A stretch of DNA of 10,542 nt from Campylobacteraceae bacterium (lineage in GTDB: Bacteria > Campylobacterota > Campylobacteria > Campylobacterales > Sulfurovaceae), in NCBI GenBank assembly GCA_027056615.1, contig JALUKJ010000210.1, positions 1-10,542 of the forward strand, written 5' to 3'. Below are positions 4,767 to 5,868 of the stretch, piece by piece. Position numbers and translations under genes: made by a program. The notes under the pieces are model-generated. The model saw only the letters and a program-made list of their open reading frames with translations. It made no database searches and was not told where the DNA came from. The first letter of the stretch is position 1, and each line of letters starts with the position of its first letter.

Positions 4767-4936
4767 CATTCCCAACAAGGACATCAATGCCAATGAATTA
4801 AGGAATAAATATTCAAAAACTGTAGGTTCGATTTCATCGAACGGATTGTTTTATGGGCTTCAATTTTTTGTTCGATAAAATCGAACCTACAGGATTTGGG
4901 CTTAATTCAATGGCATTGACAAGGACGTTGGGAATG
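4767..4936. repeat. Hairpin split by the first MITE-like insertion, with 10-bp target duplication
   Basis: The outer arms CATTCCCAAC (4767-4776) and GTTGGGAATG (4927-4936) are perfect 10-bp inverted repeats separated by the insertion. The direct repeats ACAAGGACAT (4775-4784) and ACAAGGACGT (4919-4928) flank the element and differ at one base. Removing one copy plus the element restores a single hairpin with a 10-bp stem and a 6-base loop AAGGAC, located just after pdxJ. This was probably the original REP-like or terminator hairpin. Confidence 0.75.
4785..4918. mobile_element. MITE-like non-autonomous element, copy 1 (134 bp)
   Basis: Terminal inverted repeats are CAATGCCAATGAATTAAG at 4785-4802 and, at 4901-4918, a sequence whose reverse complement differs from it at one of 18 positions. 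Nested inside are 23-bp inverted repeats (4820-4842 and 4870-4892, one mismatch). Each contains its own small palindrome, GTTCGAT-N3-ATCGAAC. There is no reading frame of note. A second copy at 5718-5851, in the same orientation, differs at only four positions. Terminal repeats, precise ends, multiple copies and flanking 10-bp duplications are the hallmarks of a MITE mobilised in trans by a transposase not present here. Confidence 0.85.
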
Positions 4937-4971
4937 AGTCGGTAAACTAAGATTTAATATATAGGACAAAT

Positions 4972-5655
4972 ATGCATAGAATACTACAAATGCTAAAACT
5001 ACAACAAACACTAAATGATGCAACCAATGGAGTTGGTTGGGAAAAAGGCTTAACCAAAAATGGAAAAAAGATAGATTGGCGACGCTGTATCTACCTTGAA
5101 GCTTCTGAATTGGTCGACTCCTACCCTTGGAAACACTGGAAAAATATTGATGCCTCTCCTGATTATGAGAATATAAAGATTGAGATTGTTGATATTTGGC
5201 ACTTTATTATGTCTGAGGTTTTACGACTCTACAAAATAGAAAATCTTGGTTCACTAGAAGATATTGCTAATGTTGTTGCCAATATGGAGGAGTTTGAAAA
5301 CTTTAAAGAAGCTAGTAGAGGTGAAGAGCTTGACCCTTATGAGCAGATAGCATTAGTAGAAGATATGATAAAAACGCTCTTTTGCAATAGTGACATTAAT
5401 GCCCTACTCGTCTCATTTTTGACCATGTCTTCAAAGCTTAATCTAAAACTATATGAACTATATGAGCTATATGTTGGAAAGAATATTTTAAATAAATTTA
5501 GACAAGAACATGGCTATAAAGAGGGAAGTTACATTAAAGAGTGGAATGACAAAGAAGATAATGTTGTGATGCAAGAAATTTTAGCAACTCATAGTGATAT
5601 TACTCCTGAAGAGCTTTATGAAGCTTTAGAAGAAGCTTATCCAAAAAATCAATAG
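4972..5655 (+). CDS. dut: dUTP diphosphatase, dimeric all-alpha type
   Basis: A 227-residue protein closely resembling the dimeric dUTPase of Campylobacter jejuni. It hydrolyses dUTP to dUMP and pyrophosphate, keeping uracil out of DNA and feeding thymidylate synthesis. The metal-binding helices are intact: EASELVD at 43-49 (E43, E46) and KIEIVDIWHF at 69-78 (E71, D74). The preceding WRRCIYLE and following SYPWKHWK are typical. The C-terminal segment YVGKNILNKFRQ at 167-178, then HGYKEGSY and WNDKEDN to 197, is the conserved nucleotide-binding region of this family. It is unrelated to the trimeric beta-fold Dut of E. coli. AGGA at 4963-4966 with a 5-base spacer supports the ATG. Two MITE-like repeats flank the gene, and any promoter must lie in the roughly 35 bases after the first hairpin, where only a weak AT-rich -10 is visible. 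Confidence 0.95.
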   Translation: MHRILQMLKLQQTLNDATNGVGWEKGLTKNGKKIDWRRCIYLEASELVDSYPWKHWKNIDASPDYENIKIEIVDIWHFIMSEVLRLYKIENLGSLEDIANVVANMEEFENFKEASRGEELDPYEQIALVEDMIKTLFCNSDINALLVSFLTMSSKLNLKLYELYELYVGKNILNKFRQEHGYKEGSYIKEWNDKEDNVVMQEILATHSDITPEELYEALEEAYPKNQ

Positions 5656-5670
5656 CAAAGCTAAAGCCGT

Positions 5671-5705
5671 CGATTCCTTATGTGCCATTTGCATTTTTGG
5701 AATCG
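5671..5705. terminator. Hairpin downstream of dut
   Basis: CGATTCC at 5671-5677 pairs perfectly with GGAATCG at 5699-5705 across a 21-base loop. GCCG at 5666-5669 and GGC at 5705-5707 could offer an alternative register in which TC is bulged. It begins 15 bases after the dut stop codon. The right arm is shared with the hairpin broken by the second MITE copy. A terminator or REP-like role is possible; the run of T lies within the loop, not after the stem. Confidence 0.4.
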
Positions 5706-5868
5706 GCGTGTTTACACCAATGCCAATGAATTAAGTAATAAATATTCAAAAACTGTAGGTTCGATTTCATCGAACGGATTGTTTTATGGGCTTCAATTTT
5801 TTGTTCGATAAAATCGAACCTACAAGATTTGAGCTTAATTTAATGGCATTGGTGTTTACACCCGAATT
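5699..5868. repeat. Hairpin split by the second MITE-like insertion, with exact 10-bp target duplication
   Basis: GTGTTTACAC occurs exactly at 5708-5717 and 5852-5861, directly abutting both ends of the element. This duplicated sequence is itself a palindrome (GTG, TTTA, CAC). Removing the element and one copy joins GAATCGGC to the left and CCGAATT to the right, giving a hairpin with a TTTA loop, one bulged C and one A-A mismatch. It lies between the convergent dut and lipoprotein genes, where a terminator is expected. Confidence 0.7.
5718..5851. mobile_element. MITE-like non-autonomous element, copy 2 (134 bp)
   Basis: Same length and orientation as the copy at 4785-4918, 933 bp further on, with four substitutions in 134 bp. 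The terminal inverted repeats differ from each other at two of 18 positions. Internal 23-bp inverted repeats lie at 5753-5775 and 5803-5825. The flanking 10-bp duplication is exact, whereas that of copy 1 has one mismatch, so this insertion may be the younger of the two. Confidence 0.87.

Follow-up and report, generated by a model that had tools for sequence, protein, structure and literature searches.

Miniature elements with IS4-type ends found at the axis of REP-like palindromes in a Campylobacteraceae genome

Two 134-bp elements on either side of a gene in a Campylobacteraceae genome belong to a high-copy family of MITEs with IS4-type ends. These MITEs are probably moved in trans and prefer the dyad axis of REP-like palindromes as their site of insertion, and the REP pairs that they carry as cargo can, in some subfamilies, supply new targets; we regard this account, taken as a whole, as well favoured by the evidence set out below.

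The window (the whole stretch of 10,542 nucleotides that was analysed) is contig C210 of the host genome G000, an assembly of 2.40 Mb in 467 contigs that is 94.5% complete. The two elements flank a single gene, one on each side, whose product we take to be dUTPase-like. This protein is 91% identical to a protein of a Campylobacteraceae MAG, and shows 71–79% identity to the next fifteen loci, several of which are labelled Sulfurovum; the host is therefore probably a Sulfurovum-like campylobacterote. The elements are 96% alike over a 138-nt repeat, and each consists of 18-bp inverted ends enclosing an inner pair of inverted repeats. The features of the two loci are as follows.

4767..4776, no strand: left arm of the type A target palindrome of copy 1, CATTCCCAAC; the palindrome is intact at the orthologous place in L109
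4775..4784, no strand: target duplication to the left of copy 1, ACAAGGACAT, with one mismatch relative to the right copy
4785..4918, + strand: MITE copy 1, 134 bp, inverted ends CAATGCCAATGAATTAAG / CTTAATTCAATGGCATTG, with a pair of inverted GTAGGTTCGAT..ATCGAAC palindromes as cargo
4919..4928, no strand: target duplication to the right of copy 1, ACAAGGACGT
4927..4936, no strand: right arm of the type A target palindrome of copy 1, GTTGGGAATG, the exact reverse complement of the left arm
5661..5678, − strand: partner REP of the copy 2 pair, GCTAAAGCCGTCGATTCC, inverted relative to 5699-5717; the same pair structure occurs at other loci
5699..5717, + strand: left half, GGAATCGGCGTGTTTACAC, of the TTTA-type REP into which copy 2 is inserted; L324:7292 has an uninterrupted version of this palindrome
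5708..5717, no strand: target duplication to the left of copy 2, GTGTTTACAC, a perfect duplication
5718..5851, + strand: MITE copy 2, 134 bp, 96% identical to copy 1 over the 138-nt repeat
5852..5861, no strand: target duplication to the right of copy 2, GTGTTTACAC, a perfect duplication
5861-5866: continuation of the TTTA-type REP, CCCGAA, after copy 2

A preliminary description of this DNA, made from its letters, had placed both copies in the loops of hairpins that existed before them. Removal of copy 1 was said to restore a perfect 10-bp stem; it does so when the right duplication is kept, and gives nine pairs when the left one is kept, because the two duplications differ at one base. Removal of copy 2 restores, as described, a hairpin centred on GTG-TTTA-CAC with imperfect arms, the rebuilt site folding with seven pairs and one bulge at −4.4 kcal/mol. 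At both loci the duplicated 10 bp correspond to the loop together with the inner stem, again in agreement with the preliminary description.

The order of events was examined at empty sites by comparing six MITE copies with the relative G010/G100. Four of the six gave a readable orthologous site, and the two on C349 did not. The gap that precedes the same gene in L109 reads ACATTCCCAACGAGGACGTTGGGAACGAG, an uninterrupted palindrome at the place occupied by copy 1 in the window, and the palindrome therefore preceded the MITE. The GACGTT of L109 matches the duplication to the right of copy 1. The copy 2 locus in L109 contains neither the MITE nor the REP pair, and is therefore uninformative on the order of insertion. 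A pre-existing hairpin is thus established for copy 1, where the palindrome is intact in the relative, and not for copy 2, where the relative lacks the whole REP pair. The place orthologous to C442:12787 is occupied by a type A palindrome whose inner stem is different, and that orthologous to C442:15476 by an unrelated REP. At two loci of G100 (L326 and L329, on C125 and C148), the REP in the orthologous gap has another stem, or is of another type, than in the genome to which the window belongs; REPs therefore turn over quickly at fixed places.

To define the family, the end pattern was searched for with up to three mismatches, which gave 153 matches in G000 and one for the reversed control. 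The second genome rich in these ends was G029, with 37+30 end matches. From G000 and its relatives in the genus, 83 distinct two-sided copies of 110–165 bp were extracted. A target duplication is retained in 49 of them (10 bp in 44 copies, 11 bp in four and 9 bp in one), and a matching duplication is absent in the other 34. Target duplications of IS4-family elements are expected to be about 9–13 bp long. The elements have the properties of MITEs, being short, non-coding and multicopy, with IS4-like inverted ends and duplications of about 10 bp. Their ends are identical at 15 of 19 bases, counted by eye, to the end of the IS4 copy in E. coli K-12 (NC_000913.3:4502090-4503515); that copy has a 12-bp duplication around it and, unlike the MITEs, is autonomous. 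E. coli IS4 also carries the Nterm_IS4 domain (PF13006), for which none of the 34 genomes of the MITE host's genus gave a match, the E. coli control being positive. We know of no REP targeting by E. coli IS4.

A search of Rfam at the gathering cut-off gave no match, and a search of the PDB by sequence gave only two matches, both unrelated and with E about 0.6. When copies with 300 bp on both sides were considered, 11 of 70 touched an ORF of at least 100 codons running into the element. A sample of 32 contigs was also taken from G000, from which 13 that were all N (under 3 kb, e.g. L303-L310) were excluded. The 19 usable contigs contained zero MITE ends, though the genome average predicts a few, and therefore either the distribution of the copies is uneven or the bin is mixed.

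The cargo is a pair of palindromes whose type varies with the size of the element. The 134- and 165-bp forms carry a GTAG-tagged pair, GTAGGTTCGAT..ATCGAAC, the 113-, 121- and 144-bp forms carry a TTTA-type pair, GGCTAAAGCC.. and ..GGTGTRAACAC, and the 133-bp form in G029 carries yet another palindrome pair. GTAG-tagged and TTTA-type palindromes are also found free of MITEs. The GTAG tag is present in the cargo palindrome GTAGGTTCGAT, and none was seen by eye in the two main target types.

These target types, A and T, have unrelated sequences. Type A reads CTCGTTCCCA, then CCGTCTCGG, ACGAGGACGT or a variant of these, then TGGGAACGAG or ..GCAT. Type T reads GGAAYCG-n, then GTG, GGC, GAC or GAG, then TTTA, the complement of the triplet, and CCGAA or similar. 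Both types, like the GTAG cargo, are short intergenic palindromes present in many copies, as is expected of REPs. REP-class sequence was found at 85 of 106 distinct junctions in G000 (type A at 58, type T at 23 and two minor classes at four), at 37 of 48 in G029 and, for the remaining genomes, at 25 of 52, a total that takes in end-like matches within genes. The class patterns were composed after the sites had been seen, and the identical patterns fitted 2.7% of 28,272 random intergenic flanks. The suggestion that the element lands in REP-like repeats of unrelated sequence therefore holds for most targets. Intact type A palindromes without an element occur elsewhere in G000 (e.g. at L320:8595). 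At L203:962 in G032, a single end abuts half of a TAGGGTGCGATTGCT palindrome, which may represent one more type of target and is distinct from the cargo hairpin.

To ask whether the rebuilt targets fold into centred hairpins, the 49 sites with a duplication were reduced to 40 by collapsing those with similar outer flanks, and folding was carried out with DNA parameters, the hairpin centre being required to lie within 2 bp of that of the duplication. The intergenic control consisted of 14,518 pooled positions. Centred hairpins of −2 kcal/mol or better were found at 23 of the 40 targets, compared with 8.0% of intergenic and 6.5% of coding positions (binomial p about 1e-15). At −4 kcal/mol or better the count was 17 of 40 against 2.8% of intergenic positions (binomial p about 2e-16), and at −6 kcal/mol or better it was 11 of 40 against 1.4%. 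When the centre was shifted by 6–15 bp within the same sites, the proportions at these three thresholds were 9%, 4.8% and 2.2%. G000 alone contributed 19, 15 and 11 of 30 targets at −2, −4 and −6 kcal/mol respectively, and the other genomes 4, 2 and 0 of 10. A majority of copies in unstructured sequence, the result named in advance as counting against the hairpin proposal, was thus not what was observed.

The 17 targets with no centred hairpin of −2 kcal/mol or better include weaker centred stems, imperfect T stems, four sites with an off-axis hairpin (L025, L029, L069 and L205) and a few sites with little structure (e.g. L285). In the 144/145-bp subfamily, one of five sites was centred. Two sites holding elements of this size, L069 and L205, lie 3 bp off the hairpin axis, which hints at a different target geometry. 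An ungapped palindrome score was also tried; at a score of at least 5 it detected 6 of 40 targets against 3.8% of the control, or 15 of 40 against 15% with a 1-bp shift allowed. This score was too strict, and was replaced by folding because bulges and half-base shifts hid stems. Within the duplication itself, at least three outer complementary pairs were present in 25 of 40 cases, against 14.8% of control positions, and the pairing triplets were GGC/GCC, ACC/GGT, AAC/GTT, GTG/CAC, CCG/CGG, ACG/CGT, GAC/GTC, GAG/CTC and one other.

Sites that belong to one REP family do not count as independent evidence on structure, and the data amount to two scaffolds used on axis, with their stem variants, rather than forty independent tests. 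The further claim that the element recognises structure and not sequence is borne out in so far as these two unrelated scaffolds, with varying complementary stems, are both used on the axis. It fails for the GTAGGTTCGAT..ATCGAAC hairpin, which occurs free of MITEs at 8 places in 264,743 bp and was the target at none of the 207 junctions obtained in a recount over all genomes (206 at the first count). The fold energy of this hairpin is −6.5 to −7.3 kcal/mol; two T-type targets fold at −3.0 to −4.4 kcal/mol and type A at −9.4 kcal/mol. Some T stems in use were already imperfect, the flaw being present in both copies of the duplication (e.g. at L243). A transposase dimer reading a symmetric centre that is closed by G/C pairs is as compatible with these data as an extruded hairpin.

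A candidate for the transposase was sought among sequences that adjoin the same ends. C-terminal transposase pieces lie next to such an end at three places in G019 and one place in G029. The fragment matches PF01609 at 9.6e-5 and NF033592, 'IS4 family transposase', at 2e-12, both under the curated whole-protein cut-offs because it is a fragment, and a Y..R...E......K pattern, resembling the YREK motif, was seen in it by eye. G030 contains a longer relative (L221), of 453 aa and truncated where the contig begins. It scores above the NF033592 cut-off, and upstream of it lies a related end with four mismatches. No match to the relatives' fragment was found in G000, at 94.5% completeness, and the copies there are therefore orphans or reliant on a missing contig. 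Five PF01609 matches in G000 were rejected as partners: those on C438, C129 and C103 had no such ends in the stretch examined, and those on C62 and C217 lie near a MITE and not between its ends. At L042 (G000:C62:1100-2200), a REP pair together with a MITE interrupts a PF01609 transposase frame, the uninterrupted form of which is present in L103.

Nested and compound arrangements were also found. In L283 (G030), a 121-bp element with GTGTAAACAC on both sides lies on the axis of a T palindrome that itself belongs to an element of about 143 bp. Partial nesting seems to be present at L229 and L258. On C319 (L005:1356-1634), two tandem MITEs are accompanied by three copies of the 10-bp duplication ACCGAGACGG, as would arise if the duplication had twice served as target, and on C208 (L034) each of the two REPs of one pair contains an element. 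Among the 28 type A copies, the two outer arms are joined in 13 of 16 without a matching duplication and in 2 of 12 with one (Fisher p 0.0016). Such joining points to a loss of the DNA between two occupied partners, to an insertion that took in two axes, or to a skip in the assembly.

We propose that an IS4-family transposase, of the kind seen as fragments in G019 and G029, would move the MITEs in trans. Its preferred insertion point would be the dyad axis of REP-like palindromes, where a staggered cut across the loop and inner stem would yield the duplication of about 10 bp. Unrelated palindromes may serve provided that a symmetric, G/C-closed stem flanks a centre of 3–4 nt, the ability to form a hairpin being in itself insufficient; the transposase complex would then read dyad symmetry, in the form of a bent or extruded palindrome, and no fixed sequence. 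The REP pairs carried as cargo, which in some subfamilies are of a target type, would provide new targets and hence lead to nesting. Hybrid copies, if the elements feed themselves in this way, would result from recombination between two MITEs in one REP pair, or from one insertion spanning both axes. The most far-reaching version of this proposal, in which the transposase picks targets by dyad symmetry or extruded shape across unrelated REP families and the cargo plants landing sites that grow into nested mosaics, is a tentative one, and we would put it somewhat below an even chance.

A degenerate symmetric duplex consensus over the 10-bp target, of the kind reported for Tn5, which belongs to the same superfamily, could direct insertion with no hairpin or cruciform being read. 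Symmetric 10-mers such as GTGTTTACAC, GGCTTTAGCC and GACTTTAGTC are consistent with this, as are the strong GTAG hairpin that goes unused and the non-REP site L067, where the palindromic duplication CGATAATCGT forms a hairpin of merely four pairs; palindromic Tn5 targets with terminal G/C are noted in PMC1525189. However, type A and TTTA-type duplications have no common half-site, their complementarity being kept by different triplets, and type A duplications are often half a base out of frame with the axis. We therefore think such a consensus rather unlikely as the explanation.

The axis position could also go back to a few founding insertions that were then copied, with REP arms and MITE travelling as one composite. 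The AAGTAGTTTACAC..GACTTTAGTC arrangement with a MITE inside does recur in several contigs with similar outer flanks, and the REP pair around copy 2 is entirely missing from L109. Yet arms and duplications differ between copies, the collapsing of similar flanks drops only 9 of 49 sites, and the palindrome is uninterrupted at the orthologous place and elsewhere in G000, which makes a travelling composite very improbable. Survivorship, that is, near-random insertion with persistence only in neutral intergenic REPs, might be expected in a genome as dense in genes as this one, where a simple ORF rule classes 8,348 of 120,647 usable systematic bases as non-coding. The control was already intergenic, however, and selection leaves exact centring unexplained (23 of 40 targets, reduced to 9% on a shift of 6–15 bp), so that survivorship can be given hardly any weight.

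Insertion at the REP axis by an IS4-family element is already known, and the use of several scaffolds together with REP cargo is a variant upon it. According to Tobes and Pareja (2006; PMC1525189), all nine copies of ISRm22, an IS4-family element of Sinorhizobium meliloti, lie in REPs at the axis of palindromy, and hybrid direct repeats in some copies are explained there by recombination between copies. The MITEs resemble ISRm22 in family, in REP-axis insertion and in hybrid repeats. They differ from it in that ISRm22 is a complete IS that has direct repeats of 6 bp and a single REP consensus, whereas the MITEs have duplications of about 10 bp, several scaffolds and REP-pair cargo. According to the same paper, ISPsy8, ISPa11, ISPpu9, ISPpu10, ISRm19, IS1397, IS621 and ISKpn1 likewise strongly prefer REPs, and ISPsy8 is also found at the symmetry axis as the MITEs are, but these elements belong to other families and each is tied to one REP consensus. 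In the type 1 REP-recognising elements of Tobes and Pareja, 100% of copies lie in REPs at the same position; the MITEs, at 85/106, 37/48 and 25/52 junctions and usually on the axis, are not of this type. Dimers of GTAG and CGTC repeats nested within longer palindromes are described in PMC3733652, which also records GTAG and CGTC repeats from Sulfurovum sp. NBC37-1. REP dimers lie inside palindromes there as here; there the REP is the insert, whereas here REP pairs lie inside IS4-type ends that are in turn inside REPs.

The preliminary description had not recognised this pairing of element and target, and ISRm22 provides a precedent for IS4-family insertion at the REP axis. In the open-licence papers searched, no report was found of one element using several REP scaffolds, of MITEs with REP pairs as cargo, or of element-in-REP-in-element nesting.

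In the REP-targeting cases described in PMC1525189, one IS goes with one REP consensus, so that sequence and structure are inseparable. A high-copy element found in several palindromes of unrelated sequence, but never in another of equal strength, constitutes a natural experiment on what the transposase reads. It would also offer a simple route for the growth of intergenic REP/MITE mosaics, in which the cargo of one element provides the target of the next.
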